DNA from: a virus
Virus record (IMG/VR): IMGVR_UViG_3300044680_000279
Span: 1-29,598 of that record
Length of the DNA stretch: 29,598 nucleotides
Reading direction: 5' to 3' (one strand)
A program made the translations under genes and the position numbers. The notes under the pieces were generated by a model, which was not told where the DNA came from, ran no database searches, and was given only the letters and a program-made list of their open reading frames with translations. Numbering within the stretch: the stretch's first letter is position 1; every line of letters starts with the position of its first letter. This document shows positions 8,489 through 24,276 of this stretch, in pieces.

Positions 8489-8526
8489 AGGATACGGGTG
8501 GGGCTGGCCGGGAACCCGACAGTTTC
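8489..8526 (-). promoter_or_regulatory. Candidate late promoter A (shared 15-bp element + 17 nt + TATCCT)
   Basis: The plus strand carries GAACCCGACAGTTTC at 8512-8526, the same 15-mer as at 19016-19030 and 24220-24234. Read on the minus strand it is GAAACTGTCGGGTTC. Seventeen nt further on is TATCCT (8494-8489), a TAnnnT-type -10 hexamer. A start 7 nt downstream of this box falls on the G of the endolysin GTG at 8482. The site fills the 49-nt gap between the OB-fold gene and the endolysin. It shares 19 bp with site B. Confidence 0.65.
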
Positions 8527-8531
8527 GTGCC

Positions 8532-8792
8532 TCAGATCACCGCATCGGCCACCACGTAGAGATTGTTGACGATATGCATCATTACCCTGTCCCCCACGGC
8601 GCCGGTCCCCGCATACTGCCGTTGCTGGAGGACTGGAGCCGGCGTTTGGGCCCCGTCGATCAGGACCAGGAGCGGCGATACCGAGGTCACGGTGCCGAAG
8701 GCGATGTCTGGCTTGGCGGCCAGGTGCCCCCGGATGTGGGTGTTGAGAACGGTGATGAGCTTGGAGAGCTCGAGCTGGGAGCGGGCCGTCAT
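8532..8792 (-). CDS. Small OB-fold-like baseplate/tail spike protein
   Basis: An 86-residue protein starting at the ATG that overlaps the hub gene stop (ATGA); the longer frame to 8870 is a shadow of the hub gene. Residues 1-30 are helical (QLELSKLITVLNTHIRGHL). Residues 35-86 show the strand pattern of phage OB-fold spike and hub-tip proteins: FGTVTSVSPLLVLIDG, then PVLQQRQY, then GDRVMMHIVNNLYVVADAVI. Small proteins of this type follow the tail hub gene in many siphophages and sit at the tail tip. It is the last gene before the lysis module; the repeated promoter-like element begins 5 nt after its TGA. Confidence 0.65.
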   Translation of the reverse strand: MTARSQLELSKLITVLNTHIRGHLAAKPDIAFGTVTSVSPLLVLIDGAQTPAPVLQQRQYAGTGAVGDRVMMHIVNNLYVVADAVI

Positions 8793-10186
8793 TCGTCGGC
8801 GTCCTCGAGCCAGTCGCTGCCGCCGAAGTGGAAGTTGGGGAAATCGCGGAAGATCCGGCTGCCGTCCCACAAGATGCGCCGGAGCGGTTCGGCAAGGAGC
8901 CGGAAGCCCTCCAGTCCCGCCAGCCGCCCCCCGCTGCTGGTCGAGTAGGTCGACCCGAACGGGCTGTACTTGTAGCCGGTGTTCACGAAGGCATAGCGGG
9001 CGCCTCCTGCCGCCAGGTTGGAGGTCTGAGCGAACTGGGCGTCGGATGGGCCGGAGTTGGCGACCAGATCGGAGATGGGGGATCCCACAGGGATGAAGGT
9101 GAAGTTGTCAAGGACGGAATAGTCCATCGAGATCGTGGCGAGCTGGAGGATGAAGCTCCCCTGCACCGCGGCGGGCCCGCTGTTGAGATAGGCGACGTCG
9201 TAGGCGTTGAGGAAGGGGAGGGGGAGCGTGTCCATCGCGACTGTGCGCGTCAGGCCGAGCACCTGCGGAAGGAGGGCCTGAGCGATCGCAGTGCATTGGG
9301 CATTGTCGGTGACTGTGGCGATCTGGACCGGGGGCGCCGGCACGAATCCATAAGGCCCGGGGGCATAGGTCGGAGAGGTCGGGTCCATGTCGTAGGCGCT
9401 GCCGAAGAGGGCTGTATCGTTCGTCGGATTGGTGCCCGTGACGATGACCCCGTTGTAGCCCGGGTTGTTGGAATAGACGGCCGTGATGTCGTTGGCCACG
9501 TTGCCCGGGCCATCCTGAATGGCGCAGACCACCGCGCTCCCCCCATTGGAGGGGCTCGGGGCCACCACAAGAATGCCGTTCGGATCGAAATAGGCCACCA
9601 TGCCGGCCGCCATCGCGATCGACTGGATGCACGCCCACGGGTCGGTGCCCGGCGCATATATCTGCTGGGCACAGGTGAAGGTCGTCGGCGCGATGTTGTA
9701 GATGACCCCGGGGGCCTGCTGCTCGAGAATGGCGATGATGACCTCGGGCACGGTGGCGCCCACCGCCGAGGTGAATACATCGTTGAAGAGGGCATTGGAA
9801 ATCCTGAGGCTCCGGTCGGTGCCATCAACGGTGAGGATGGGCCCCGGGTCGTCGTTCCCGCCGGCACCCGTCACGACGTCGCACTCGCCGACGCCAAACA
9901 CTCCTTGCGGATACCAGATCGGCTCGCCGTCGACGAGAAAACCCTTCCAAATCTTGACCTCGACCCCGGCCGGCTGGAGGAGGCCGGCGCCTCCGCTGGT
10001 CGGGATGAGGAGGCCGGTCGGATCGACGCACTGGAAGGTGCATGTCGCCATGTTCTCCGAAGTGATGTCAAGGGTGACCGAGCCGCCCGGCAGGATGTTG
10101 TCGATGCTCCCAATGGTGACGTCGTTGACGAGGACATCGACCTTGCAGATGACGGTGCAGGAGTTGGCACCCAGCGTGTCGGTCAT
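8789..10186 (-). CDS. Tail hub / baseplate protein (Tal- or gp27-like)
   Basis: A 465-residue minor tail protein. Residues 13-110 resemble the first hub domain of siphophage tail-tip proteins: VDVLVNDVTIGSI, then TCTFQCVDPTGLLIPT, then PQGVFGVGECDV, where substrate strands pack around the tail axis. Residues 115-390 continue a gp27-like pattern including VPEVIIAILEQ, DPNGILVVAP, ITAVYSNNPGYNGVIVTG and LNAYDVAYLNSG. The C-terminal 70 residues are Gly/Ser- and Arg-rich and lead into an acidic end. It starts with ATGA overlap on the preceding minor tail gene, and it is followed by the OB-fold protein, a standard hub-spike pairing. The assignment rests on pattern and order, without a catalytic signature. 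Confidence 0.7.
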   Translation of the reverse strand: MTDTLGANSCTVICKVDVLVNDVTIGSIDNILPGGSVTLDITSENMATCTFQCVDPTGLLIPTSGGAGLLQPAGVEVKIWKGFLVDGEPIWYPQGVFGVGECDVVTGAGGNDDPGPILTVDGTDRSLRISNALFNDVFTSAVGATVPEVIIAILEQQAPGVIYNIAPTTFTCAQQIYAPGTDPWACIQSIAMAAGMVAYFDPNGILVVAPSPSNGGSAVVCAIQDGPGNVANDITAVYSNNPGYNGVIVTGTNPTNDTALFGSAYDMDPTSPTYAPGPYGFVPAPPVQIATVTDNAQCTAIAQALLPQVLGLTRTVAMDTLPLPFLNAYDVAYLNSGPAAVQGSFILQLATISMDYSVLDNFTFIPVGSPISDLVANSGPSDAQFAQTSNLAAGGARYAFVNTGYKYSPFGSTYSTSSGGRLAGLEGFRLLAEPLRRILWDGSRIFRDFPNFHFGGSDWLEDADE

Positions 10187-10626
10187 GGCGGGGAGACAAC
10201 CTGACAGACCATGCTCACGTTCCGCACCACCTTGTCGGAGTTGAAATACCGGAGCGATGGAAGGTTGGTCGAGTCGTTTTTGGTCGGCCCGAGGCGCACG
10301 TAATACTGGCCGGTCGGATAGGGGCCCTTGAGGATGAGCACGTTCTGCGTGGCGCGCATGTTCTCGAACGCCTGGTAATCCGAGTCGCCGATGAAGGTGA
10401 GCTGGAAGGAGATCGACGGGAGTCCGAATGCGTCGGAGAGAACGACGGGATCAGGGCGCCCAATAATCGGGACGATCTGCTGCCGGTCCTGGGAGACGGT
10501 ATCGAAGGTCCCGGGCGCCAGGCTGAGTCCGAGGACCTGGCTCGTCACCGGGTCGGCGAGCCACCAAACGAGACTGTCGGGAACATTGGTGGTGACATCG
10601 GTCCAGTTGCCGGCGATCGTGCCCAT
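10183..10626 (-). CDS. Minor tail protein
   Basis: A 147-residue protein that starts 3 nt after the stop of the preceding fibronectin-like gene. It has a strand-rich sequence with DPVTSQVLGLSLAPGTF, GRPDPVVLSD, ISFQLTFIGDSDYQAFENM and PTGQYYVRLGP. This order resembles the small minor tail proteins placed between distal-tail and hub genes in actinophages. No cysteine pairs, catalytic motif or membrane segment is present. Likely a component of the tail tip; the exact position is unknown. Confidence 0.65.
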   Translation of the reverse strand: MGTIAGNWTDVTTNVPDSLVWWLADPVTSQVLGLSLAPGTFDTVSQDRQQIVPIIGRPDPVVLSDAFGLPSISFQLTFIGDSDYQAFENMRATQNVLILKGPYPTGQYYVRLGPTKNDSTNLPSLRYFNSDKVVRNVSMVCQVVSPP

Positions 10627-10629
10627 GAA

Positions 10630-11946
10630 TCAAACCTCCGCTGTGAGCTGGCACCGATAGAGGCGGGTGTAACCATGGGGGGCCTCGAGGTCGACGACGC
10701 TGACCGTCTGAGTGTCCGCCGGCAAGGGGAGATTGGTGCCGTTGCGGAGGGGCCACCATGTAGATCCCCCATCGTCCGAATATTGGATCGAGGCGAAGGT
10801 GTGACCAACGAGGCTCTGGACAAGAGGCATCCCCGGAGCGAAGGGAAGGCGACCCAAGCCCGGGACGGCGTTGATGTCGTTGGAGACGTTTCCGACAGGA
10901 TCGTTCCCGACGACCGTGCAGGTGACAATGGGCATGCCGCCAGGCCCCGTCCCGGGAGTGGCCGTGAACGTCGGGTCGGCAGGAGCCGCGAACGAGGTGG
11001 TGAATGCCGAGGATGCCCACGAGCTCGTCACGCCGCCCGTCTCCGTGATCTGGACATAGGCGCAGTAGGAGCCCTCCGACAGGGCAACGGGACAAGGGAC
11101 GCTGTTGGTATAGGCCCCGGAGATCGTGCCGGAGTCCCATACGGCCGCGCTGACCCCCGGCTCGAAACCGCCTGCCGCGACCTGCGCTGCCGTGTAGACA
11201 ATGGCCCGGTAAGCGATCTGCTGGGGGGTGACGGTATCGTTCGCGGTCGGCGTGAAGGGCGCATAGCAGACCCAACCCATCGACGTCTGGCCCGTGGGAT
11301 CGAACACCGCATCCCCGACGGTGGTCGGCCAAGTCGGCTGCACACTTCCCGAGGTTTCGGGGGCCTCGGTGCTGCCCCTGCGCAGATAGACAAAGCCATT
11401 CGGGGGCGACGGCTGCACCTGATCGCCGAACTGATAGGTGGTGCTGGGAGCCCAACTGGGGATCGGGAGCTGGGGAGAGGGAAGTCCCGGCGTCCATGTC
11501 ACCGTCACCATCGCATCGGCCACCGTCCCGGTTGGAGAGGTGATCGTGGCCGTCGGAGCGCACAGGGCCGTGACGGTGATGTCCTGCGCGAAGGGGCCCG
11601 TACCATTGACATCGGAGGTGCAGACCGAGATGTTGTAGATGACTCCATCCTCGAAGGCACCCGGCCAAATCAGTTCGCTCTCCTCCGTGCTCGAGTTGAG
11701 AACGAAGGTGGATTGCCATGCCGAGAGGGAGGCATTCCAGAAGAGATAGCTACCGGCTCCCGTGATCTTGGCCCGGATGGCATAGCTGGTCTGAGTGACT
11801 CCGAAGATCGATGGGTTGTACTGCCATTCGACCAGACACCCGGCGTTCGGGATGCCGGCCAGGTCCGCATAGCTCGCGTTGACCGGACTGAGGATGGTGG
11901 GTGCGAAGCAGGGAGTGGCGAGGATCCCGCCGACGATGATGGGCAT
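10630..11946 (-). CDS. Minor tail protein with fibronectin-III/Ig-like domains
   Basis: A 438-residue protein with three or four beta-sandwich modules. The first (about residues 15-130) contains VEWQYNPSIFGVTQTSYAIRAK and ends in GPFAQDITV. The second begins with TITSPTGTVADAMVTVTWTPG (residues 133-155). A third ends in SYCAYVQITETGGVTSSWASS (about residue 310). A last module covers residues 320-438 (PTFTATPGTG to LYRCQLTAEV). The repeating 'W ... Y.A.v' pattern is that of FnIII-like modules used in tail tips to contact host surfaces. A Trp-rich insert (PSWAPSTTYQFGDQVQP) resembles a carbohydrate-binding module. It follows the fibre paralogues and precedes the hub. Confidence 0.75.
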   Translation of the reverse strand: MPIIVGGILATPCFAPTILSPVNASYADLAGIPNAGCLVEWQYNPSIFGVTQTSYAIRAKITGAGSYLFWNASLSAWQSTFVLNSSTEESELIWPGAFEDGVIYNISVCTSDVNGTGPFAQDITVTALCAPTATITSPTGTVADAMVTVTWTPGLPSPQLPIPSWAPSTTYQFGDQVQPSPPNGFVYLRRGSTEAPETSGSVQPTWPTTVGDAVFDPTGQTSMGWVCYAPFTPTANDTVTPQQIAYRAIVYTAAQVAAGGFEPGVSAAVWDSGTISGAYTNSVPCPVALSEGSYCAYVQITETGGVTSSWASSAFTTSFAAPADPTFTATPGTGPGGMPIVTCTVVGNDPVGNVSNDINAVPGLGRLPFAPGMPLVQSLVGHTFASIQYSDDGGSTWWPLRNGTNLPLPADTQTVSVVDLEAPHGYTRLYRCQLTAEV

Positions 11947-11951
11947 TTAGA

Positions 11952-12602
11952 TCAACACCCCAACGCGGACCAGTTGAGCCGCACCGGCATCGAGTTCCAT
12001 GTGTTGGCTCCATCGACATAGAGACAGATGGCCCGGAAGGAAGAGAGGCCACTCCCGAGGCCATCCAATGAAACGAACGGATTGTCCGGGGTGCCGAGAT
12101 TGGAGCCTCCCGGCACGATGTGGGTCGGATATTGGCCGGCATCCACATTTAGGGCGATGATTGCATTGGCGAACGCGGTCGGATAGTGGACCACGACGAA
12201 GCCGTTGCTGTCGGAGGTCCCGAGATAGACCCCCGACTGCCAGGTCCAATGGGGAGTGGTCGGCAGCTCGCCCCATATCGGATTCGGGTTCTTGACGTGG
12301 GGGAGATTGCCCAAGGCGCTGTAGTACGGAAGAACCTGCACCCTCTCGATCATCGGGTCGCCCCCGACCGCATAGGAGAGGTCGTAGAACCCGGGCTCGG
12401 CGAAGAAGGAGATGTTCCCGAAGCCATCCGTGTTCACCGGATTGTCAGCGGCGGAGTCTCGGGTCTGGTCGGTATAGAGGCGCGTTGCATTCTCCGTGCC
12501 GGCCGCATAGACGGTCACGGGGGTGTTCGGGCATGGGCCTCCCCCGGAATCGAGGAGGCCACTGGGGCCGAACATGCCAGCGAGACCATAGGGAGACTTC
12601 AT
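11952..12602 (-). CDS. Tail fibre protein, paralogue 1 (gp53-like C-terminus)
   Basis: A 216-residue protein, clearly a tandem duplicate of the gene just upstream (12604-13209). Shared blocks in the same order are PNTPVTVY, LYTDQTR, VLPY, WQSGV, ALNVD and a terminal WSALGC. The N-terminal 75 residues look like a small beta-sandwich that docks fibres to the tail. Residues 110-216 resemble the phage fibre C-terminal fold (gp53-like) in which a strand-rich head ends in '.W.A.G.'; this copy carries an extra GSNLGTPDNPFVSLDG insert. I chose ATG 12602, one base after the preceding stop, over the longer frame from 12668, which overlaps the paralogue. Probable role: receptor binding. Confidence 0.7.
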   Translation of the reverse strand: MKSPYGLAGMFGPSGLLDSGGGPCPNTPVTVYAAGTENATRLYTDQTRDSAADNPVNTDGFGNISFFAEPGFYDLSYAVGGDPMIERVQVLPYYSALGNLPHVKNPNPIWGELPTTPHWTWQSGVYLGTSDSNGFVVVHYPTAFANAIIALNVDAGQYPTHIVPGGSNLGTPDNPFVSLDGLGSGLSSFRAICLYVDGANTWNSMPVRLNWSALGC

Positions 12603-12603
12603 C

Positions 12604-13209
12604 TCAACACCCCAGCGCCGACCAGTGAACCCGGACAGTCGCGGAGTCGTAGGCACCGCCGTTGGCATCGGTGCAGAGCACCTTGAAAGAGCTCAGGCCG
12701 CTGTTCGCAGCGTCCTGAGACACGAAAACATTGGTGGTCCACTCGCCAGGGTCCACATTGAGCGCCACGACCGCATTGGGGAACGCTGCCGGATAGTTGA
12801 CGACGATGAATCCCGAAGTCGAGGAAGTCTGCACGCTCACCCCCGACTGCCACCACCAAGTGGGATTGGAAGGAATCGACCCCCAAATGGCCGAGGCGTC
12901 CTGAACCTGCGGGAGGCTGGCGAGATCCCCGAAGTATGGGAGCACCTGCACGGTGAGTGGCGTGACGATTCCGCCGACCTCGACCACCAGGTCGTACAGC
13001 CCGGGATTGGCGAAGAACAGGAGCTTTCCATTGGCGTCCGTGTCGACGGGATTGGTCGCCGCTGTCCCTCGGGTCTGGTCGGTGTAGAGGCTCGCCGGCG
13101 TCGTGGTGCCGTGGTTGTAGACGGTGACGGGAGTGTTCGGGACCGGGGTGCCCTGCGAGTCGAGGATGGTCTCCGCCCCGTACATCCCGGCCGAGGGGTA
13201 GTTGCTCAT
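12604..13209 (-). CDS. Tail fibre protein, paralogue 2 (gp53-like C-terminus)
   Basis: A 201-residue protein starting at ATG 13209, with AAAGGAG just upstream and an ATGA overlap on the zinc-ribbon gene. Residues 1-75 (PNTPVTVYNHG, LYTDQTRGTAATNPVDTD, FFANPGLYDL) form a beta-sandwich module. Residues 100-201 form a second module with WWWQSGV, FIVVNYPAAFPNAVVALNVD and a final VRVHWSALGC that matches the end of gp53-like fibre domains. It is the more compact of two tandem copies, and the DNA around the two stop codons is still alike (TCAACACCCCA on the plus strand at 12604 and 11952). No signal peptide. Likely host-range determinant at the tail tip. Confidence 0.7.
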   Translation of the reverse strand: MSNYPSAGMYGAETILDSQGTPVPNTPVTVYNHGTTTPASLYTDQTRGTAATNPVDTDANGKLLFFANPGLYDLVVEVGGIVTPLTVQVLPYFGDLASLPQVQDASAIWGSIPSNPTWWWQSGVSVQTSSTSGFIVVNYPAAFPNAVVALNVDPGEWTTNVFVSQDAANSGLSSFKVLCTDANGGAYDSATVRVHWSALGC

Positions 13210-13442: not shown

Positions 13443-16400
13443 GCTGCCATCGGTCCTGTCGGTGCGCGCTGGAGAGCGCGTCGGAGATCGGGGATCACGC
13501 TTGCGACTCCCTTCTGTGCGGCCTGCTGAACGGCCCATGGATCGCTCGAGCCCCTGGCATCGACGTTCACCTCGATATGGGTTCCGGCCCCACCGCCACT
13601 CGCGGCGACCATGGCACTCGACATGACGAACTCTCCGCCGTGGACGATGGCCAGCGAGGGCGCCCCCTCTGGACCGCCGACCCAGCCGCCGGTATCGAAG
13701 GATGGGATGTTCGGGATGTGGGGGAACAGGTGGATGCCGAGGAACGAAGGATCGTGGGCGTTGGCGAAATTGATGGCGCTGTTCAGGGGACCGATCAATC
13801 CGTCGATGATCTTTTCGCCCACCCCGGCGAGCCAAGACCCGGCACCGGCGAACGCCCCTTGCACCGCCCGCGCCATGCCGGAGAAGGCATTAGGAAGCGA
13901 GGACGTGACCCAGTGGGTGATGCCACTGACCACTCCATCGAAGGCATGAGGGAGCTTCTGCGTGACGAAGGTATCGATGGCCCCCGTGAAGCTGTCGAAG
14001 GCCGAGGCGATGACGTGACGCACGTTGTCGAATCCGTGGGGCAGGGAATTGGTCACCCAGTTCGCGATCCCGCTGCGCACCAGATCGAAGGTGTGCGGCA
14101 GGGAGTTGCTGACCCAGTTCGAAACGCTGCTGGTCACCAAATCGAACCCCGAAGCGATGGCATGGCGGGCGGTATCGAATCCGTGCGGTAGGGAGTTGGT
14201 GAACCAGTCAGCGATCCCATGACGCACCAAATCGAACGTGTGAGGAAGCGAGTTGGTGACCCAGTTCGAGACCCCGCCGGTTATGTCATCGAATCCGTGC
14301 GCGATGGCATGGCGGGCGGTATCGAATCCGTGCGGCAGGGAGTTGGTAGCCCAATTCCCGATGTCCTTGGCGCCCTCGCCCAGCCAGTGCTCGAGGTCGT
14401 GAGTCCAGTTGGCGAGATCCTGCGACCCGCGGTTGAGAAAGCCGCCGAAATCCCTGGCGGCGATATCGGCCGCGTGCCCGACGTCGAAGAATGCCTTGGA
14501 GATGTGCTGGAGCTCTTGGAGCCAGCCCGGAGGAGGCTTCGGCGGTAGCGGGGTGTTCTCCTTGTAGTTGGCCTGCTGGAGCGCCCTGAGTCTCTGATCG
14601 GCCGGCGTGTTTCCGATGATCCCCGTGTCCTGCAAGTCGCCGAGCTTCGAGCGCCCGGTCGGCGAGACGGGGTTCGACGGATTGAGGTAGGGAGCCAAGG
14701 CTGCCTGTTGCGGGATCGGCACGCCCCGATAGGCCGCCGCGGCGATCGCCTCATTCTCCGCCAGGGTGCGTTGGTTGGCGGGAAGGTTGGCCCCATAGGC
14801 GCCGAGGAACTGCTGTGCCGGGGTCAGGGCCGGAAGCTGCGGGGGGTGCAGCAACCCTTGGATCTTCTCGTAGGCCCACCCGATGGCAAGGATGGCGGCG
14901 GGGATGGCGAGGAACGGGGAGGCTTCGAGAGCGAGACCGCCGAGGACCCCGCCGAGGATGGCGAGTGCCGCGGTGAGATCACCAATCGGGATCTTCTGGA
15001 TGAGCCCGGTGAGCCCCTGGAAGGCCGGGGTCAGCACCTTCATGATGGTCAGACCGATGGGAGCGAGCGCCTTGAAAAGATCGACCAAGACGTGCCAGAC
15101 CAGATCACCGGCCGCCCCCAGGAATCCGAAGGCGGTCGTCATCCCCTGCATGAAGCCGGGGCCGAGCTTGACATGGTTCAGGAAGGTGGCCAGGCCGCCA
15201 GACACCCGATCGAACCATTTGCCGACCGCCTGTGCTGGGGCACCTCCGAACAGCTTGAGGAATCCACCGAAGGCATTGCCCATGTTGATGAGGAAGTGAC
15301 CGAATTCATCCATGACCGGACCGACGTCCTTGGTCATGGTGGCCATGAACGACCTGAAGCCGCCGCTCTGGAGCCCCCGGTCGATCGAATCGAAGAATCC
15401 GGACATGGACTTGATCGCGGCCTCGCCGAACGGCGCGACATAGTGGAGCGCGTCGCCGAGCGAATGAAGGAAGGTGATGATCTGTGGGTCGATCTCTTGC
15501 TCGGCCTTGCCGAGATAGGAGGACCCCGAGGAGACGATGGGGGCGATCGCCGCGGCGATGGAGTTGGCCTGAGGGGTGTACGACGCGAGGGTCTGCTGCT
15601 CGGTGATCTTGGCGGTCTCATTGGCTGTGGCCGCCTGTGCCGGCGTCATCAGGCCGGCCGCCACGGCAGCCGCATCGGAGCTCACCGTCGACTGATAGGT
15701 GGAAGCCGCGGTCTTGGCGCCGGAATATGCCTCGTAGCCCTTCACGAGGTCGAGGAGACCGGGGATGAATGCCGCCGCGGTGCCGGCCAGTCCGATCGAG
15801 GTGCCGGCGATGGCGCCGCCCGTGGCGAGCCCCACCGCCCCGAGAACAGGGACGGCGAGCGAGGCAAGGGGAACGCCGAACTGGAGGGCCGGGGAGAGAT
15901 TGCCGAGGGAGTCGACGAAGCTGCCGGCGCCGCTGACCGCGCCAGTCAGTAGCTTGCCGAAGAACCCTCCCCCGCTCCCGCCACCCAGCGCGCTCTCGGC
16001 ATCGCTGATGATCCCCTTGGACAGGGCCGAGGTGAACGAGCCCGAGACCTCCTTGCCCGCCTTGCTGGCCCACTTCTTGAGGTCGGACTCGATCTGGCTC
16101 CTGCCCTTGAACAGAGCAGAGAGCGGGTTCGTCTTGCCCTGCGCCCCGAACTGGCCGAACACCTCGTACTCGCCGTCGGTGAGGGCGGCCTTGGCGTCGG
16201 CCTTCCACATCTCGGCGAACTGTTCGGCGTCGGACTTGACCGCGCCGCCGCTACCACCGAAGGCCCGGAAGATGACCGAACCATCACTGCCGATGCTGGC
16301 GGCGCCCGGCAGGCCATTCGTGAAATCGTTGAGGAAGGAGGAGTCCGCCTCATTGGCGGCCACCTTCTCGGCGAGGTTCTCCGCCCTGGCGATGGCGGCG

Positions 16401-17521
16401 GCATGGAGGTTGTCGGCCGCAAGCTGGTCGATCGCCTTGGCGGCTGGGTTCGGAGGGGGCGGGGCCTGATCCTCTGCAGAGCCGAACCAGCCCTCACCGA
16501 AGGAGGAATTTCGGAGCCCGTTCGATCCATAGAGGCTGTTGATGAGGTTGGTTGCCTGGGCCTCGGCCTGTCGGACGGCCGATTCGTAGCCGAGACGCTC
16601 CTCCTCGGCGAGCTGCTCCTCGAGGTCCGAGCCCACGCCGAGCGCCGGGGTCGGGGGCAGGAAGGAGGATGCGGCGCCGGGGGGCACCTCTTGGGCGAAC
16701 GCATCGACGATGCTGGCCGGCGGGATGGCCGGCGGGGCGGCCGCTGCTTCGAGTGCCCTGGAGACCTGATCTATCTGCGCCGGGGGGAAGCCGGCGAACC
16801 CCATGACATCGTTCAGCTCGGAAAGGTTGAGGCCCTGGCCGAGGATGGAGCTCAGGATGTTGGTGCGCGCCGCTCCGAGCTCACTATCGCCGAAGACTCC
16901 TGCCAGGAATGCCTTGGCGGCTGCCGCCTCGATATAGAGCTCGGCCAGATTGAGATTGAGGGGAATCTCGATCGGCTCGCCGGCCGTGAGCTTGGCGGTC
17001 TCATGGGCCGCTTCGCCCTCGACGGCGAGGGCCGGCTGGTCGAACTCAGCCGGGATCTTGACCGGAGATTCGAGCGCCTCCTTGACGCCCTCGATTTCGG
17101 CGGCGTCTCGGTCGACGGTGGAGGTCTCGAGCTCTGCCGGGATTTCGACCGGCGACTCGAGGGCGCTCTTGGACTCCTCGAGCTCGGCGGCCTTCTCATC
17201 GAAGGATTCGGATGATGCGCCGATAGGGATGTCGACAGGCTTCTCGAGCTCGTCTTTCTTCCCCTTGACCTCATCGACTTCTTCGTCGAGCTTGTCCTTG
17301 TCGACCGAGACCTCGAACTCGACAGGCTTCTCGAGCTCGTCTTTCTTCTCGTCGACCTCATCGACGTCCTCGTCGAACTCTTCGAGGTCGAGCTTGACCT
17401 TGGGAGACCAGACGGTATCGTCGAGCTCCTGGCCGCGCTTCTTTACATCGTCGAGATCCTCGTCGAACTCTTCGCGGTCGAGCTTGAGGTGGGCGGTGAT
17501 TGCCCCGGCGTCGAAACCCAT
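13439..17521 (-). CDS. Tape measure protein
   Basis: The longest gene (1360 residues). Tape measure proteins set tail length and are later ejected; at about 1.5 Angstrom per residue this one suggests a tail near 200 nm. Residues 10-165 are acidic repeats of about 30 residues (FDEDVDEVDEKKDELEKPV and variants), probably coiled coils with short strands. Two long hydrophobic stretches (about residues 535-580 and 845-885) fit the membrane segments typical of tape measures. Residues 1056-1202 hold three 49-residue Trp/Phe-containing repeats. The C-terminus (HIEVNVDARGSSDPWAV) resembles the usual tape measure end. I see no peptidase or lysozyme motif. The ATG overlaps the chaperone stop (TGATG). 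Gene order after the frameshifted chaperone pair makes the call secure. Confidence 0.95.
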   Translation of the reverse strand: MGFDAGAITAHLKLDREEFDEDLDDVKKRGQELDDTVWSPKVKLDLEEFDEDVDEVDEKKDELEKPVEFEVSVDKDKLDEEVDEVKGKKDELEKPVDIPIGASSESFDEKAAELEESKSALESPVEIPAELETSTVDRDAAEIEGVKEALESPVKIPAEFDQPALAVEGEAAHETAKLTAGEPIEIPLNLNLAELYIEAAAAKAFLAGVFGDSELGAARTNILSSILGQGLNLSELNDVMGFAGFPPAQIDQVSRALEAAAAPPAIPPASIVDAFAQEVPPGAASSFLPPTPALGVGSDLEEQLAEEERLGYESAVRQAEAQATNLINSLYGSNGLRNSSFGEGWFGSAEDQAPPPPNPAAKAIDQLAADNLHAAAIARAENLAEKVAANEADSSFLNDFTNGLPGAASIGSDGSVIFRAFGGSGGAVKSDAEQFAEMWKADAKAALTDGEYEVFGQFGAQGKTNPLSALFKGRSQIESDLKKWASKAGKEVSGSFTSALSKGIISDAESALGGGSGGGFFGKLLTGAVSGAGSFVDSLGNLSPALQFGVPLASLAVPVLGAVGLATGGAIAGTSIGLAGTAAAFIPGLLDLVKGYEAYSGAKTAASTYQSTVSSDAAAVAAGLMTPAQAATANETAKITEQQTLASYTPQANSIAAAIAPIVSSGSSYLGKAEQEIDPQIITFLHSLGDALHYVAPFGEAAIKSMSGFFDSIDRGLQSGGFRSFMATMTKDVGPVMDEFGHFLINMGNAFGGFLKLFGGAPAQAVGKWFDRVSGGLATFLNHVKLGPGFMQGMTTAFGFLGAAGDLVWHVLVDLFKALAPIGLTIMKVLTPAFQGLTGLIQKIPIGDLTAALAILGGVLGGLALEASPFLAIPAAILAIGWAYEKIQGLLHPPQLPALTPAQQFLGAYGANLPANQRTLAENEAIAAAAYRGVPIPQQAALAPYLNPSNPVSPTGRSKLGDLQDTGIIGNTPADQRLRALQQANYKENTPLPPKPPPGWLQELQHISKAFFDVGHAADIAARDFGGFLNRGSQDLANWTHDLEHWLGEGAKDIGNWATNSLPHGFDTARHAIAHGFDDITGGVSNWVTNSLPHTFDLVRHGIADWFTNSLPHGFDTARHAIASGFDLVTSSVSNWVSNSLPHTFDLVRSGIANWVTNSLPHGFDNVRHVIASAFDSFTGAIDTFVTQKLPHAFDGVVSGITHWVTSSLPNAFSGMARAVQGAFAGAGSWLAGVGEKIIDGLIGPLNSAINFANAHDPSFLGIHLFPHIPNIPSFDTGGWVGGPEGAPSLAIVHGGEFVMSSAMVAASGGGAGTHIEVNVDARGSSDPWAVQQAAQKGVASVIPDLRRALQRAPTGPMAA
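13916..14356 (-). repeat. Three 147-bp (49-residue) tandem repeats in tape measure
   Basis: The segment encodes residues 1056-1202 of the tape measure as three units of exactly 147 nt. Each unit splits into a 30-residue and a 19-residue half, both starting with a variant of NWVTNSLPHGFD. The period shows at DNA level: GGTATCGAATCCGTGCGG on the plus strand occurs at 14171 and again at 14318, 147 nt apart. The first two units are closest; the third has drifted (TFVTQKLPHAFD). Confidence 0.85.
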
Positions 17522-18143
17522 CAGGCGGCGCTCACGGTGCCAACGGAGAAGCCGAGACCGGCAGCGGCCAGACCCTCGGGGGTGGAGGCGTCGATCACTT
17601 CGTCTGCCTCATCGTCGCCGTACTCGACGGCCAGGCCCTCCAGATAGACCCGCTTCTGCCACCATGGGAGCGAGCGCACTTCATCCACTCCCATTCCGAG
17701 CCGACGCCGGAACACATAGAGGAGCAGCCGCTCGTTCTCTGTGCCCGCGAGGGCCTCGTAGCGGTCTCCTAGTCTTTTGGGTCCCCGCCCCCCAGCTCCT
17801 TGAGCAACCAGGCCACGAAGGCGGAGAGATAGCGGGGCGGGATCTGCGCGATGTCCTCGGGCGAGATAGTGCCGGCGGCGAAGTCGACCACGACCGCCCG
17901 GGTCTTCTCGATGACGGTCCGCTGGGCGTCGGCATCGTCGGCCTCCGCATTGACGTCGGAATCGTCCTTCGCCGCGGCCTTCCGCATGGCATTGAGCGCC
18001 TCGTAGAACGCCACAAGGCGCTCATCGGTCGGCTCAGGCAGCACTCCCTTGAGAGTGAGGTTGCCGGCGCCGTCCAGCCGAGGAGCAGCGGTGAAGTCGT
18101 AGTCGAGGCTCGGGACCGACCCCGCTGCGGTGAAGCCGCTCAT
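17521..18143 (-). CDS. Tail assembly chaperone, frameshifted long form (gpGT-like)
   Basis: Predicted 207-residue product made by -1 ribosomal frameshifting at 17781-17775. It consists of the first 123 residues of the short chaperone followed by 84 residues read in the -1 frame (starting RLGDRYEAL, continuing LYVFRRRLGMGVDEV and LPWWQKRVYLEGL). The -1 frame is open from before the slip site to the TGA at 17523-17521, which overlaps the tape measure ATG. In lambda, gpG and gpGT keep the tape measure soluble and recruit tail tube subunits; this pair occupies the same position between tube and tape measure genes. If only standalone frames are counted, the T part appears as a fragment starting near GTG 17715, which has no good RBS. 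Confidence 0.85.
17769..18143 (-). CDS. Tail assembly chaperone, short form (gpG-like)
   Basis: A 124-residue acidic protein (MSGFTAAGSV to LLKELGGGDPKD). I placed the start at the ATG overlapping the tail tube gene stop (ATGA) and not at the longer frame to 18188, which is shadow. Residues 40-90 are helical and Asp/Ala-rich, and residues 95-115 are IPPRYLSAFVAWLLKEL, a helix typical of chaperone C-termini. The gene ends GAC CCA AAA GAC TAG, containing the slippery heptamer that yields the long form. The role is to chaperone the tape measure during tail assembly in the cytoplasm. Confidence 0.85.
   Translation of the reverse strand: MSGFTAAGSVPSLDYDFTAAPRLDGAGNLTLKGVLPEPTDERLVAFYEALNAMRKAAAKDDSDVNAEADDADAQRTVIEKTRAVVVDFAAGTISPEDIAQIPPRYLSAFVAWLLKELGGGDPKD
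17775..17781 (-). promoter_or_regulatory. Programmed -1 frameshift site CCCAAAA
   Basis: On the minus strand the end of the short chaperone reads GAC CCA AAA GAC TAG. The heptamer C CCA AAA fits X XXY YYZ in the correct zero frame, two codons before the stop. Slipping back one base gives CCC AAA, then AGA CTA GGA, which stays open to the tape measure gene. A GC-rich run (GGGGGGCGGGGA) lies just before the site. I did not find a clear downstream stem by eye. Confidence 0.85.
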
Positions 18144-18712
18144 TCGACGGCCGTCGCATCGGTGATGACGATGGAGGACATGGGGCACACGGCCGAGAAG
18201 GTGGCCGGATAGCTCCGGTTGGCCTTGGCCCGGGAGTAGGTCGTCTTGACCTTGCCGCCCGAGATGACGGTCGGGATGTAGACGAGGCGCGTGAACCCGA
18301 AGGAGTTGGTCGCGGTGAAGCAGATCGCCAGGGTCTCGAGCGCATCGGCCAGGGTGAGGATCGTCTGGCCCGGGGTGCTCGGCGAGGCCGCGGCGACAGT
18401 GGTGATCGTCCCGCCGCCGTAGGCCGTCTGCATGTTGAGGATCGTGTCCTCGGAGAGGGTGATGTCGATGGTGACATCCGTGGTGTCAGGGACCACCAGA
18501 ATCGGCGTCGACTGCTCCTCGACCATGATGTTCGTGACCTTGCGGTCGACGTTGATGGTCACACCGGACTCGGTGAATCCGATGGCCGCCCACGGAGTCG
18601 TCGGCGTGCAGGAGACGACGGTAGAGGTTGACGTGATGGCCGGCGCCGCGGTGCCCGATGGGGCGATGTACGCCTGTGCCAGGCCGACGATGACGGCTGC
18701 TGCTGTTCCCAC
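18140..18712 (-). CDS. Major tail tube protein
   Basis: A 190-residue protein that should form the hexameric rings of the tail tube. The pattern is typical of siphophage tube proteins: AAIGFTESGVTINVDRKV (residues 42-59), IMVEEQSTPILVVPDTTDVTIDITLSEDTIL (residues 62-92), and a C-terminal strand pair around AKANRSYPATFSAVCP. The GTG start has a near-perfect GGAGGT five bases upstream, the strongest RBS in the region and suitable for a highly expressed protein. It lies directly before the chaperone pair, as expected. It is the second gene behind promoter-like site B. Confidence 0.85.
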   Translation of the reverse strand: MGTAAAVIVGLAQAYIAPSGTAAPAITSTSTVVSCTPTTPWAAIGFTESGVTINVDRKVTNIMVEEQSTPILVVPDTTDVTIDITLSEDTILNMQTAYGGGTITTVAAASPSTPGQTILTLADALETLAICFTATNSFGFTRLVYIPTVISGGKVKTTYSRAKANRSYPATFSAVCPMSSIVITDATAVE

Positions 18713-18715
18713 GGG

Positions 18716-18985
18716 TTACCTCCGCTCGAGGGTCACGCCGGAGGATTCCCCCGCCGCGATCACTTGGTCGACTGTCGCTGCTGGCCCTGCTGTGCCCTCG
18801 GGGGTGATCGGGAGCCATCCCTCGATGCCGGAGATGAACTCGCTGATCCGCCAGGTGGTCACCGCCAGGACGGCGACCTCACCGGTGGCGGCCTCGATCG
18901 CTTCGATTTGCTCACCCGGGCTGAGGCTCTGATCCGGTACGACGATGGGCGCATCGGACGCGGCCGAGGTGAGGGTGTCGGACAT
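18716..18985 (-). CDS. Small protein preceding the tail tube gene
   Basis: An 89-residue acidic protein of unknown family. I chose the ATG at 18985 (MSDTLTSAAS) rather than 18997 because the 18997 ATG lies inside the -10-like box of site B, and neither start has a Shine-Dalgarno. With the 18985 start, the predicted transcription start of site B coincides with the AUG, giving a leaderless mRNA. The protein has a Ser/Ala-rich start, a central helix (PGEQIEAIEAATGEVAVLAV), a TTWRISEFISGIEGWLP segment and a second helix (AATVDQVIAAGESS). It has no membrane segment. It is the first gene of the tail module; a tube-associated or assembly role is possible but not shown. Confidence 0.65.
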   Translation of the reverse strand: MSDTLTSAASDAPIVVPDQSLSPGEQIEAIEAATGEVAVLAVTTWRISEFISGIEGWLPITPEGTAGPAATVDQVIAAGESSGVTLERR

Positions 18986-18992
18986 CGGGGGG

Positions 18993-19030
18993 AGCATCGC
19001 AGGCGCGGTGCTTGCGAACCCGACAGTTTC
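18993..19030 (-). promoter_or_regulatory. Candidate late promoter B (shared 15-bp element + 17 nt + GATGCT)
   Basis: The 15-mer GAACCCGACAGTTTC lies at 19016-19030 on the plus strand, identical to sites A and C; with flanks it shares 19 bp (GAACCCGACAGTTTCGTGC) with site A. On the minus strand, after 17 nt, comes GATGCT (18998-18993), which matches TAnnnT at all but the first base. The site fills the 36-nt gap after the tail terminator gene and precedes the tail module. It is the weakest of the three -10 boxes. Confidence 0.55.
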
Positions 19031-19033
19031 GTG

Positions 19034-19920: not shown

Positions 19921-20012
19921 TAGACCTGGTCGAAGGTAACTGCTCCGACCAGGTCTCCCCGTCCCACCTGCCTGCGGAGTTGGTCTATCCGTTCCGCAAA
20001 GGTGTCTGCCAT
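19917..20012 (-). CDS. 31-residue ORF, probable 5' part of the neck/connector gene
   Basis: The frame starts at ATG 20012 with a strong GAGGGGG Shine-Dalgarno about 5 nt upstream. It encodes MADTFAERIDQLRRQV, then GDLVGAVTFDQVY, and ends at TGA 19919-19917. The start looks like a normal phage protein N-terminus (helix plus short strand) while the product is implausibly short. The next frame begins one base back at TTG 19920 and continues naturally. The simplest reading is the intact start of the following gene cut off by a one-base loss. The strong RBS shows that translation is meant to begin here rather than upstream at 20052. Confidence 0.55.
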   Translation of the reverse strand: MADTFAERIDQLRRQVGRGDLVGAVTFDQVY

Positions 20013-20023
20013 GGGTCACCCCC

Positions 20024-20599
20024 TCAGGCGGTCTGAGCGTGCTTGCGCTCATAGAAGGCTTTGCGGGATGCGAGTGCTTTCGCTATCCGTTCGGGTGAAT
20101 GTTTCCGACCGCGCTGACCCGCCGCGATGCGCTCACGGGCCTCGGGGGAGAACCCGACCTCCCGATGCCATGCCCTGTGCTTGGCCGCGGTCTCAGGGCC
20201 GCGCTTTTGACCGGTCACGGCGAGGCGCAGTTTCTCCTTGGTCTCCTCCGATGTCACGCGCCCGCGGCCCGCTGCCGCGATCTTGGCTCGAGTCTCGGAG
20301 GAGCGCTTGAGTCCCGCGTTGGAGTCGACGATCTCTCGGCTGTTGAAAACGGAGTCCAGAAGGTCAGCCCAGTGCTGCTCGCGCACCGTCAGGAAGTCCG
20401 CGCTGCACGGCTCCAGCATCTCGAAATCGAATGCCTCTTCCCCGTGCTTGTCCCATGACCGCTGGAGATAGCGGGAATGGTGCTTGCCGTGGGCCAGGTC
20501 GAACCGGTGCTGTCGCCAGCGAGCGCCGATGTCCCGCGCCTGCCCCACATAGCAACGACCGGAATCTCGGTGGACGATCCTGTAGATGCCGGTCTTCAT
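20024..20599 (-). CDS. GIY-YIG endonuclease with NUMOD3 motifs (copy 2)
   Basis: A 191-residue free-standing GIY-YIG nuclease. Catalytic domain residues 1-90: Y6 (GIYRIVH), Y17-V-G19 (CYVGQ), R27, E74 (TVREQHW) and N86 (VFNS). The C-terminal half holds several NUMOD3-type DNA-binding motifs (LKRSSETRAKIAAAGRGR, then QKRGPETAAKHRAW, then GRKHSPERIAKA). It is paralogous to the nuclease at 20883-21341, aligning without gaps over the first 86 residues with 43 identities. Its ATG overlaps the stop of the head closure gene (ATGA). Such genes usually act as homing endonucleases cutting related phage genomes lacking the insert. It has no intron partner here. Confidence 0.85.
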   Translation of the reverse strand: MKTGIYRIVHRDSGRCYVGQARDIGARWRQHRFDLAHGKHHSRYLQRSWDKHGEEAFDFEMLEPCSADFLTVREQHWADLLDSVFNSREIVDSNAGLKRSSETRAKIAAAGRGRVTSEETKEKLRLAVTGQKRGPETAAKHRAWHREVGFSPEARERIAAGQRGRKHSPERIAKALASRKAFYERKHAQTA

Positions 20600-20886
20600 C
20601 GGGTGAGCGCCGTGACGCCAATGAGGGAGCCGTCGATGTCGATGAGGCTGGTGATCGCGACCACTTCCCGGCTGTCGAGGAGGTCGCCAATGGCCGGACT
20701 CTCGGTGAGAAGGACCGAGGTGGTGGCCGTGATCGTCTCCCCGTCGGCGCCGAAGATGTCGCGGAGCTTCTGCACCTTCCGACAGGGGACCGTCTGCGGC
20801 TGCCCATAGATCGGGTCCGATCGGTTGTCGGTTCCCGTCTTCGGCAGCCATTCCACCGTCTGCTTGAGGAAGGGGGAGATGTTCAC
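20596..20886 (-). CDS. Head closure / head-tail joining protein
   Basis: A 96-residue protein: MNISPFLKQTVEWLPKTGTDN, then PIYGQPQTVPCRKV, then strand-rich VLLTESPAIGDLLDSREVVAITSLID ending GVTALTR. The short N-terminal segment followed by a small beta-barrel is the layout of siphophage head closure (stopper) proteins that seal the portal ring and dock the tail. It lies between two GIY-YIG genes, overlapping both by 4 nt. Without those two inserts it would follow the connector gene directly, the normal head-to-tail order. No catalytic motifs are seen. Confidence 0.7.
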   Translation of the reverse strand: MNISPFLKQTVEWLPKTGTDNRSDPIYGQPQTVPCRKVQKLRDIFGADGETITATTSVLLTESPAIGDLLDSREVVAITSLIDIDGSLIGVTALTR

Positions 20887-21341
20887 GCCGCTCGATTCCT
20901 GCGGATCTCGGTGAGCTCGGAGCGGCGTTCCGGCGAATAGCTATCCCACCGTCGCTTTGCCGCTTCGCTCATCCTGCGACGGGTCTCGGCCGTGTGCTTC
21001 CCACCGCGGTGTGCATCAGCCATCTTCTGTCGGGTCTCGGGCGTGTGCTTGAATCCGCGGGGACTGCCGGCGGCCGGGGCTGAGTTGAACTCGGGGCGGA
21101 GGGCATCCATCCAGAACTGCTCGCGGGAGGTCAGGGCCTCCGGATCGCACTCCTCCAGCACTTCCCAGTAGAAGGCTGCTTCGCCGTACTGATCCCATGC
21201 GGCCTGGAGGTGCTTGCCATGGTGATAGCCACCACGGAGGCGCGTACGATGGTTGGCCTCGCGGCGCTCGAAGTCGACAGTCTGACCGATATACCGCCGT
21301 CCGGTGTCGGCATGGACGATGGCATAGATGCAGGTCAGCAT
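20883..21341 (-). CDS. GIY-YIG endonuclease with NUMOD3 motifs (copy 1)
   Basis: A 152-residue nuclease starting at ATG 21341, which overlaps the connector stop by one base (TGATG); the longer frame to 21665 is a shadow of the connector gene. GIY-YIG residues are Y6 (CIYAIVH), Y17-I-G19 (RYIGQT), R27, E74 (TSREQFWMD) and N86 (EFNSAP). Residues 96-133 are two NUMOD3-like motifs (GFKHTPETRQKMADAH and GKHTAETRRRMSEAAKRRW). It is shorter than copy 2 but aligned with it over the whole catalytic domain. Both copies read in the same direction as the late genes and use overlapping starts, so they are co-translated with virion genes. Function by family: site-specific DNA cleavage and homing. Confidence 0.85.
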   Translation of the reverse strand: MLTCIYAIVHADTGRRYIGQTVDFERREANHRTRLRGGYHHGKHLQAAWDQYGEAAFYWEVLEECDPEALTSREQFWMDALRPEFNSAPAAGSPRGFKHTPETRQKMADAHRGGKHTAETRRRMSEAAKRRWDSYSPERRSELTEIRRNRAA

Positions 21342-21877
21342 CACGTAAAATTTATGAATGGCTGGCTGTGCCCCTGGCGGATCAGGAATGGCGAGAGGAG
21401 CGATGCCTGGATCCGATCGAGCTGGGAGATGCCGTCTCGGATGTCGTAGCGGACCGAGATGCCCGTCACACTCTCCGAGACAACGCTCCGGTCGAAGGGG
21501 AGGGTGACCATCCGGTACGCCTCGAGGCAGACCCAATCGACGACCTGCTCGGGGACGACCCCCTCGTAGTCGAGGTAGAAGGCACCCGCGAGCTGGTTGC
21601 TGACCATGATCGGGGACGGGGCCCCGAGCATGTTCGGCCACCCATACTTGAAGGTGCGCGGCCATTCCCGCTCTTGAGTGACCGTGTACTTGACGCCGAT
21701 GAACGGCGCCTCCTCATCGACCGCCATTGTGGCGGCCAGGAGAATGCCGTCAGCCAGGTCCACCGTGAGCCCGTACCGGGTGCTCAGCCGGTCTTCCGCG
21801 TCCTTGCTGGTGACATAGGACTGCGGAGTGTCCCCCGCCGCCGGAACATTGGGGATCTCCGGCTGGACGTCGCTCAC
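21341..21877 (-). CDS. Head-tail connector protein
   Basis: A 178-residue protein with a helical N-terminal half (YVTSKDAEDRLSTRYGLTVDLADGILLAATMAV), a strand region (FIGVKYTVTQEREWPR), PEQVVDWVCLEAYRMV and a C-terminal helix (LDRIQASLLSPFL). This layout matches the gp6/gp15-type adaptors that bind beneath the portal and receive the head closure ring. It overlaps the small head protein upstream (ATGA) and the GIY-YIG start downstream (TGATG). Order after the major capsid protein supports the role. Confidence 0.7.
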   Translation of the reverse strand: MSDVQPEIPNVPAAGDTPQSYVTSKDAEDRLSTRYGLTVDLADGILLAATMAVDEEAPFIGVKYTVTQEREWPRTFKYGWPNMLGAPSPIMVSNQLAGAFYLDYEGVVPEQVVDWVCLEAYRMVTLPFDRSVVSESVTGISVRYDIRDGISQLDRIQASLLSPFLIRQGHSQPFINFT

Positions 21878-22134
21878 TTCACCCCATCGGTCTCCACGGG
21901 CTTGAGCGGCGCGCCCGTCGCATACAGGCGCTCTCCCACCTCACCCGTCACCGGGTCCCCCTTCTTGAAGGAGAGGAGCTGGGTCAGGTGGTTGGCACAG
22001 AAGTCGCGGATCGCCACGAACTCCCGATAGACCACGTTCTCGGCGGTCACGATGTCCGCTTCGACCTCGGCCTCGACCTTCTCGACCACATTCTCCGGCA
22101 CCATCTCGGGTGCCTTGGACGTGCTGGCTGCCAT
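21874..22134 (-). CDS. Small head protein behind major capsid
   Basis: An 86-residue protein of unknown family. The first 30 residues are Glu/Val-rich and helical (ENVVEKVEAEVEADIV); the rest is a compact beta unit (FVAIRDFCANHLTQLLSFKKGDPVTGEVGERLY) resembling an SH3-like fold. It starts at ATG 22134 with AGGAG four bases upstream and lies 11 nt after the capsid stop. Small proteins at this position are often decoration or head-fibre proteins, or simple linkers. There is nothing to decide between these. Confidence 0.6.
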   Translation of the reverse strand: MAASTSKAPEMVPENVVEKVEAEVEADIVTAENVVYREFVAIRDFCANHLTQLLSFKKGDPVTGEVGERLYATGAPLKPVETDGVK

Positions 22135-22145
22135 GTCGCTCCTGA

Positions 22146-23477
22146 CTAGGCGTGCTCGACGACGACGGCCCGCTTGTAGGCGGCGCTGTCACCCGTGAGC
22201 ATGTCGGTTCCGACGGTGTACCCACCGATCCACGACCAGGTGCTCGAGAGCACTTGTCCGAACCGGTCGAGCGGTGCCCGGAGGATGCGGGCGACTCCGC
22301 CGATCATGTCGACCTGGACGGTCGAGCCGGCGTTCAGCGTCGAGACCAGGCTACCCATGCTCTCGAAGGGGGCCTTGATGAGGCACCCATCGCCGCACAC
22401 GATCGGACGGTAGTACGTCACGCCCGAGGGGTTGGTGCCGGTCGGGGTGACGTTGTTCAGCACCCAGTCGATGCCGACGAACCGACCGAGGAACTCGATG
22501 CCACTATTGCCGGAGGCGCCCGAGCCGAGGGTCAAGTTCTCGTAGGCCGGCGTGTCCGCACGCCCCTGGTAGACCTGGCGGAAGTTCGCGTCTTGGAACA
22601 GCTCATTGAGCGTCTGCGGCGCGATGTGGGCGGTGTAGGCGCCCCCGACCGGATGGACGTTCTGCGAACGCAACCGGGTCACAGCCGACTCGAACAGAGC
22701 CAGGGTGGCGACGTCGCCGGCAACCAGGGTCGAGGCCGAGGTGCGAGCGTTCGGCCGGTACTGGACCGGAGCGATGGACGAGACGACGGCCCAGCCGGTC
22801 GTTGCGGAGACCGCAGTGCCGAGGGTCAGCGTGTCGCTCGCATGGCCCGCCGTGATGGTCACGCCGGTCACGGTGTTCGCGACACCGTTGACGGTCACCG
22901 TCAGGGGGTTGGACCCGGAGACGGGCTGGAGCTGAGGAACCGCGACGCCGGTCGCCGCTTCCACCCCGGAAGTGGTGGACAGCGTGACGGGAGCGAAGGC
23001 GAACCCGGAGGCGTCGGCCACGTCCAGCGTGGTCGAGGAGGTGCTGCCTGCCGTCGCGTAGGTCGTTCCCTCGCCATAGGCCCCGTACAACGAGAGCTGG
23101 GCGATGAGGTTCATGGACTGCGCGGCGTTGATGCCGAGCTGCTTGTTGTCCTCGAGGAACTTGGAGGCGAGAGCCTGCGCGCTCACGGCCATGTTGGTGT
23201 CGATGGAGTTACCGAACTGATCCATCTTCACTGAGTACTGCTCGAACCCGTAGGCCGAGGCGCTGGCGTCGGAGCCGGTGACGGCAGTCGTCACCGGAGC
23301 CATCAGCCCGGCGCGGGTGAGGATGGACTGCGAACCGAGCTGCGCACCCCACGGCCGGATGTCGGCGAGGGTGTCATACAGGAAGAGGGGAACGAGGGCG
23401 TCGTCGAACACGCGGTCGAGGAGGCCGTTCTGCACGATCTCTTGGAGCGAGGCGGGGAGTGCGTCGCGAAAGCTCAT
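22146..23477 (-). CDS. Major capsid protein (HK97 fold)
   Basis: A 443-residue protein placed directly behind the scaffold gene. The N-terminal arm (residues 1-60) is followed by strand-helix segments including the long spine-like helix around residues 95-132 (AVSAQALASKFLEDNKQLG, AAQSMNLIAQLSL). Residues 140-240 are Thr/Ser/Val-rich with strong strand alternation (PLTVTVNGVANTVTGVTIT), most likely an Ig-like domain inserted into the capsid fold. The core resumes at 248-300 (AGDVATLALFESAVTRLRSQNV, AHIAPQTLNELFQD) and closes with IGGVARILRAPLDRFGQ. Features of the N4-gp56 or HK97-like families are plausible. The start has AAAGGA 12 nt upstream. Confidence 0.85.
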   Translation of the reverse strand: MSFRDALPASLQEIVQNGLLDRVFDDALVPLFLYDTLADIRPWGAQLGSQSILTRAGLMAPVTTAVTGSDASASAYGFEQYSVKMDQFGNSIDTNMAVSAQALASKFLEDNKQLGINAAQSMNLIAQLSLYGAYGEGTTYATAGSTSSTTLDVADASGFAFAPVTLSTTSGVEAATGVAVPQLQPVSGSNPLTVTVNGVANTVTGVTITAGHASDTLTLGTAVSATTGWAVVSSIAPVQYRPNARTSASTLVAGDVATLALFESAVTRLRSQNVHPVGGAYTAHIAPQTLNELFQDANFRQVYQGRADTPAYENLTLGSGASGNSGIEFLGRFVGIDWVLNNVTPTGTNPSGVTYYRPIVCGDGCLIKAPFESMGSLVSTLNAGSTVQVDMIGGVARILRAPLDRFGQVLSSTWSWIGGYTVGTDMLTGDSAAYKRAVVVEHA

Positions 23478-23502
23478 CTCAGGGGGTGTCCTTTTTCAGG
23501 GG

Positions 23503-24153
23503 CTAGAGTTTGACGTTGTATTTCCTGGCTGCTTCGGCCAGCTCGTCCCTCGACGCCTTGCGGTAGTCGACGTCCCCGACAGCGCCGCCAGTGGCATCGG
23601 GCGAGCTCGGCCTCGGAGTCACCTTCCCGAACCATTCGGGGGTGCTGGCCTTCACCGCCTCGATCGCCTCCGGTATGCCGGCGACTTCGAGCCCATCCAC
23701 CTTGAGGCCCGTGGTATCGACCAGCTTCATCGCTGCGGGGATGCGCTCGGGGTTGATTCCCGAGTCCCTCAGCGCACCTTCGAGCTTGGTGAGGGCGAGC
23801 AGTTGCGTCGCGGTCTGCAAAGTCCGGTCCGCTTCCTGCTTCGCCTCGTCGCGCTCTTTGGTCAGCCGTTCGACCTCAGACAACTTGGCGTCTTCCGCTG
23901 CCTTGGCCTCCGCTAGGAGAGCCTTGGCGGCATCGAGGTCCGTCACCCCCAGCGTCTTGAGGAGATCCGTCTCCGCAGTGGATCGACCGTTTGCTCGGGC
24001 TTCGCCGGCAATCCTGTCGAGGTCCGCTTGCGTGAACTTGACCTCTTTGGCCTTGCGCTCATCCTCGAGTCGCTTGGCTTCGGCTTCATCGGCGATTCGC
24101 TTCGCCTCTGCTGCTTCTGCCGCGGCCTTCTCTTCTGCTGTCGGTTCTGGCAC
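23503..24153 (-). CDS. Scaffolding protein
   Basis: A 216-residue, highly charged, Ala/Glu/Lys-rich protein. Residues 1-40 and 85-120 are coiled coil (AEAKRIADEAEAKRLEDERK, KLSEVERLTKERDEAKQEAD). In between lies the segment FTQADLDRIAGEARANGRSTAE, common in phage scaffolds. The Pro/Ser-rich linker near residues 185-195 and the basic C-terminal helix (ELAEAARKYNVKL) fit the capsid-binding end. Scaffolds guide capsid assembly and leave before DNA packaging. The GTG start has GGGGAG five bases upstream. The promoter-like site C and a 5-bp stem (24164-24180) lie in the leader. It is directly followed by the major capsid gene. Confidence 0.8.
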   Translation of the reverse strand: MPEPTAEEKAAAEAAEAKRIADEAEAKRLEDERKAKEVKFTQADLDRIAGEARANGRSTAETDLLKTLGVTDLDAAKALLAEAKAAEDAKLSEVERLTKERDEAKQEADRTLQTATQLLALTKLEGALRDSGINPERIPAAMKLVDTTGLKVDGLEVAGIPEAIEAVKASTPEWFGKVTPRPSSPDATGGAVGDVDYRKASRDELAEAARKYNVKL

Positions 24154-24196
24154 TCACACTCCCCTTGATTTCCCGTCAAGTACGGTCGTGGCGGCG

Positions 24197-24234
24197 AGAG
24201 TACGGGGCGCGTTATCGGGGAACCCGACAGTTTC
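24197..24234 (-). promoter_or_regulatory. Candidate late promoter C (shared 15-bp element + 17 nt + TACTCT)
   Basis: The 15-mer GAACCCGACAGTTTC lies at 24220-24234, identical to sites A and B, and shares GGGAACCCGACAGTTTC with A. On the minus strand it is followed after exactly 17 nt by TACTCT (24202-24197), a TAnnnT hexamer. The predicted start near 24190 gives a leader of about 37 nt that includes the 5-bp stem CTTGA...TCAAG and the scaffold RBS. The site lies between divergent genes, so control of the plus-strand endonuclease gene is also possible. Confidence 0.65.
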
Positions 24235-24276
24235 AGATTCGACTTCGGCGGCGACCCCTCGTTGTAGGGTTTGTCC

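Follow-up and report, generated by a model that had tools for sequence, protein, structure and literature searches.

A repeated 15-bp element probably marks the late promoters of a temperate tailed phage whose relatives carry elements of their own

A 15-bp element stands ahead of virion-gene modules in a 29.6-kb IMG/VR phage contig (the window, meaning the whole 29,598-nucleotide stretch analyzed) and very probably acts as a custom switch for them, judging from its sequence and placement. In all likelihood its three copies mark promoters for the late (virion) genes of a tailed, temperate phage; there SigA-RNA polymerase would work without the usual -35 sequence, in whose place a phage activator that coevolves with its site would bind. 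Should this be true, three things follow: a rule for late promoters in an uncharacterised phage family, a role for phage-encoded WhiB proteins that can be tested directly, and a naturally occurring set of fast-diverging matched promoter-activator pairs suited to cis-trans coevolution studies and to orthogonal promoters in actinobacteria.

The minus strand of the window carries genes for terminase, portal, scaffold, capsid, tail tube, tape measure, distal tail, NlpC/P60 and C92-peptidase-like proteins, and a tyrosine integrase lies at its end. The early region falls outside the window, and the candidate activator is visible in relatives only. The features at the three sites are:

8512..8526, minus strand: putative late-promoter element, copy 1, exact repeat of GAAACTGTCGGGTTC
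8489..8494, minus strand: -10-like hexamer TATCCT, 17 nt downstream of copy 1
7760..8482, minus strand: NlpC/P60 (distal tail/lysin) gene, GTG 6 nt past the -10, predicted leaderless, predicted transcription start about 8482
19016..19030, minus strand: putative late-promoter element, copy 2, exact repeat of GAAACTGTCGGGTTC
18993..18998, minus strand: -10-like hexamer GATGCT (not TANNNT), 17 nt downstream of copy 2
18716..18985, minus strand: small ORF ahead of the tail tube gene, ATG 18985 being 7 nt past the -10, predicted leaderless
24220..24234, minus strand: putative late-promoter element, copy 3, exact repeat of GAAACTGTCGGGTTC
24197..24202, minus strand: -10-like hexamer TACTCT, 17 nt downstream of copy 3
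23503..24153, minus strand: scaffolding protein gene (PHROG 2303), leadered, with a Shine-Dalgarno sequence

The three copies are exact and share one orientation, as the original prediction had it, and the exact 17-nt interval to each -10-like hexamer was confirmed as well. The only further match in the window at up to three mismatches lies at 10570 and has all three. The repeat exceeds what 60 second-order Markov shuffles of the window produced, where the longest k-mer found three times on one strand was 13 nt and no 15-mer occurred that often. Other parts of the prediction need amendment. Besides the three gaps said to be the only ones longer than about 25 nt, a few other apparent gaps above that length exist, filled by small ORFs or a GIY-YIG gene. 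Nor is the third gap empty, as it holds a plus-strand Endonuclease VII-type HNH gene (24271-24729) inserted just upstream of the element at the putative scaffold promoter; a different inserted gene occupies the same gap in one relative, G001. The GIY-YIG/NUMOD3 homing-endonuclease-like ORF (20024-20851, minus strand) overlaps the head-tail connector region. The sites do precede the tail and scaffold modules, while the label "lysis" for the module after site 1 is uncertain because the NlpC/P60 protein also matches minor-tail families. The partial dyad symmetry once taken to hint at an activator or repressor site is lost in relatives, and the idea of a dyad bound by a repressor is unsupported.

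Relatives, here IMG/VR contigs collected by capsid and terminase searches, show what is constant at these sites and what is not. About ten related lineages have their own -35-region element at the same module boundaries (packaging, scaffold, tail, distal tail/lysin), followed at a fixed distance by TANNNT. In orthologous gaps the element is GAAACTGTCGGGTTC in L022 and L013, GAAAGTGTCGGGTTC in G003, L005 and L007, and GAAACGGGCGGGTTG in G005. G001 has four copies of GAAAGTGAGAGGTTC, L004 has GAAACTGTCCCCTTT at one site only, G008 has TGATTGCCCCCTTCCCT at five sites with one copy mismatched, G002 has GTGCCCGCTT at four sites with one copy reading GTGCCCGCAT (GCAT), and G007 has CTAGTTCAACCCACAC at two. 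Two-site elements in G006 (CTAAGTTA, 8 nt) and G013 (GGTGGGA, 7 nt) are short and make weaker cases, and G014 and L017 show no clear element. The elements of the distant lineages came from a motif-free search or from inspection of orthologous gaps.

The equivalent gaps of close relatives had been named beforehand as the place where the prediction of coordinated late promoters should stand or fall. The element or a variant of it is found there in six relatives (L022, G003, L007, G005, L004 and G001), with TANNNT at exactly 17 nt in 12 of their 14 independent sites against a background of 0.17% per position, so that on sequence grounds the prediction is well supported. Over all 32 catalogued sites, with spacing fitted for the distant lineages, 25 carry TANNNT, the SigA -10 pattern, and 30 carry NANNNT. 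The suggestion of a phage-specific promoter class holds beyond what was originally claimed, as the elements that distant relatives have in this position are wholly different. When all 2.9 million IMG/VR contigs were scanned for the 15-mer together with TANNNT, three came back: two relatives (scaffold and packaging sites) and L028, an unrelated contig whose match falls within coding sequence and was set aside as chance. In Streptomyces phage Kromp the capsid protein is related (42% identity), but the equivalent gaps are devoid of the element, and no comparable set exists in the part of Kromp scanned or in shuffled sequences. The early regions of G001 and G008 contain no copy except one in G001 (contig of L011), reversed and with one mismatch, at late-oriented position 18074 on the minus strand; it sits 66 bp from the putative packaging promoter, has no clear -10, and is perhaps a divergent promoter or an extra binding site. 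Also at the packaging promoter, near the start of the late operon, is a conserved small protein of about 50 aa (W.K.HGI..GSW.D.AIDAA), at late-oriented positions 18185-18340 in G001, 1472-1624 in G002 and 10953-11123 in G008.

Sites of one lineage share an element identity of 0.83, against 0.42 for orthologous sites in different lineages, whereas spacer identity stays at chance level (0.35 within, 0.33 between) and the -10 is conserved across all lineages. None of 5000 label permutations came near the observed within/between difference for the element. The four closest lineages behave alike, with element identity of 0.99 within against 0.77 between, and spacer identity of 0.38 against 0.37. 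Paralogous sites of one phage thus resemble each other more than orthologous sites of sister phages do, which is the mark of cis sites that depend on a single trans factor. That each relative has its own spelling of the element in the same places suggests a matching activator of its own in each phage.

The anatomy of the sites fits a promoter. Relative to the -10 hexamer the element spans about -32 to -18, the place of the -35 hexamer, and inspection of the catalogue found no TTGACA-like -35 at 16-18 nt, the position reading GGGTTC, AGGTTC, CCCTTT and the like. In nearly all cases the start codon at packaging, tail and distal-tail/lysin sites comes 6-9 nt past the -10 (ATG 18985 and GTG 8482 in the window, ATGs at three sites of G001, ATG and GTGs in G008, GTGs in G002), and therefore the mRNAs from these sites should be leaderless. 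Read from the sequence, such a geometry suits a promoter and is wrong for a translation signal. Scaffold sites retain the -10 with the start codon about 40-50 nt further on, which ties the element to the -10 and not to the start codon; it begins about 45 nt and ends about 30 nt before the leaderless start codons, and lies farther away at scaffold sites. At the second site of the window, GATGCT overlaps ATG 18997, the start given by the ORF finder for the small ORF before the tail tube gene; comparison with ortholog starts in G001 and G005 makes the in-frame ATG at 18985 the likely start instead.

How could one phage switch all these modules together? In the mechanism we propose, host RNA polymerase with its principal sigma factor would read the -10 (TANNNT), a phage-specific element of 10-17 bp would take the place of the usual -35 hexamer, and a phage-encoded activator would bind this element and recruit sigma region 4. 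Switching on this one factor would then turn on the packaging, scaffold/capsid, tail and distal-tail/lysin modules at once, and because factor and sites would coevolve, every lineage would come to have its own element. The factor itself may be an early-region WhiB-domain protein with a Cys-rich C-terminal extension. Three relatives with early regions (G001, G007 and G008) have three early genes in common, encoding this extended WhiB-domain protein, a Zn-ribbon-like protein whose gene adjoins it in two of the three, and a RuvB-like ATPase. The WhiB domain (PF02467, with its conserved cysteines) is found in each at E values of 1e-14 to 1e-17, and the extension is rich in Cys and His (CPIC..PK.P.ALGC..H followed by C..RG..H....Y..GC.C). 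The nearest solved structures to the candidate are WhiB proteins, and searches turned up full-length relatives in the G001, G007 and G008 contigs only; an AlphaFold model (pLDDT 54) had too low a quality to support a fold search.

Contacts with sigmaA region 4 and with DNA near -35 are established for known WhiB proteins (PMC10245118). The candidate shares the domain with WhiB7, WhiB3 and the WhiB that acts with WhiA, a family that works through these contacts, and differs in having its family-specific Cys-rich extension and not a known AT-hook. WhiB-like proteins are reported to be exclusive to Actinobacteria and their phages and to have a largely enigmatic role in the phage life cycle (PMC8612146), so the hosts are probably actinobacteria; capsid and terminase profile searches of bacterial genomes found no prophage. 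A WhiB protein alone does not predict the system, because five other WhiB-encoding actinophages have no comparable promoter set, and the Zn-ribbon-like protein and the RuvB-like ATPase are also conserved in the same early regions. With three genomes to draw on, the extended WhiB protein is the leading candidate for the late activator, an assignment that falls a little short of probable. The wider proposal, in which a WhiB/Cys-rich fusion redirects host SigA-RNA polymerase to a private -35 code and thereby controls all late transcription in a family of phages that are probably actinobacterial, is more tentative still.

Could the element be a site of repression instead? The main rival holds that it serves the immunity repressor as an operator or stoperator, keeping late genes off in the lysogen and diversifying with immunity specificity. 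The window phage does encode an integrase, and the stoperators of Cluster A mycobacteriophages are likewise short (13-bp) repeats in one orientation, uniform within a genome and differing between genomes along with the cognate repressor (PMC6550527). Those stoperators, however, number up to about 30, are mostly not linked to promoters, and repress. Here there are only 3-5 copies per phage (2-5 sites in the comparison with stoperators), all at a fixed distance from the -10 in the -35 position of the putative late promoters; we did not find the many sites, at an early promoter and at promoter-free positions, that mark the Cluster A arrangement. The early regions of G001 and G008, where one would look for an early lytic operator, lack copies apart from the single reversed one in G001, and the sites leave no separate -35 hexamer for unaided transcription. 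We regard the repressor reading as unlikely. Marginally less likely is that a phage-encoded sigma factor reads the element as its own -35 box. An exact 17-nt spacing would suit a sigma factor, a divergent gp55-like protein could escape detection, and G002, alone among the relatives, gives a clear match, a sigma-70 region 2/4-like protein at about 22361-22867 (contig of L015). Yet that gene lies in the late region and the G002 promoters resemble those of the others, while G001, G007 and G008 have the elements and early regions with no sigma-70 region 2 found in them. Other region-4 matches, below cut-off, were mostly helix-turn-helix domains of terminase small subunits.

Reading by a host transcription factor or an alternative sigma factor, with differences between elements mirroring differences between hosts, is improbable. 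Hosts may differ between lineages, but close relatives with 69-79% capsid identity already differ in the element while the -10 stays constant. We give least weight to the idea that the elements are boundary sequences of mosaic modules, or RNA-level signals, which we find very improbable. They do sit at module borders, with cargo genes just upstream of the scaffold site in the window and in G001, but boundary sequences would not explain the exact coupling to TANNNT and to leaderless starts, and sequences that differ between relatives would defeat homologous exchange.

Activated late promoters, our preferred reading, resemble the middle promoters of T4, where AsiA and MotA appropriate sigma: the -10 is kept and a phage box near -30 replaces the -35 (PMC6755090). 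The sites here likewise retain the -10 and have a phage-specific box in place of the -35. In T4, however, it is middle genes in a proteobacterial host that are served, whereas here it is late genes, and the box here diverges strongly between relatives. The likeness is a functional analogy without a claim of homology: the system stands outside the T4 sigma-appropriation family, although it would operate in a similar way. The Start-Associated Sequences of Cluster K phages are likewise repeats near start codons, 13 bp long and non-palindromic (PMC3203893). They precede start codons by 3-7 bp, chiefly in non-structural genes, and have a proposed role in translation; the element here is coupled to the -10 and is not found at that distance from start codons. 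In the literature searched, whose coverage was incomplete, we found nothing equivalent for late promoters of actinophages with a phage activator, no private -35 code varying lineage by lineage in one phage family, and no late-activator role for a phage WhiB protein.

Other features of the window were seen in passing. The tape measure gene has internal tandem repeats of 147 nt (49 codons) at 13995-14357 (minus strand), and an ARAGORN tRNA-Met call antisense to that gene (16963-17059, plus strand) is probably a false positive. Rfam has no family in the window. The scaffold mRNA leader contains one more element:

24164..24180, minus strand: predicted scaffold mRNA leader hairpin CTTGA-CGGGAAA-TCAAG, directly before the Shine-Dalgarno sequence GGGGA, covarying across relatives

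This hairpin of 5 bp, whose loop starts with CGGG, is common to the window, G003/G005, G001, G002 and G008, and similar loops in L017 and G014 probably belong to the same structure. Among five lineages both partners vary in three of its five pairs, giving a covariation score of 0.80, compared with 0.31 for shuffles and at most 0.20 when the pairing is slid (five sequences, over a hand-chosen stretch). The hairpin may control translation of the scaffold or capsid genes.
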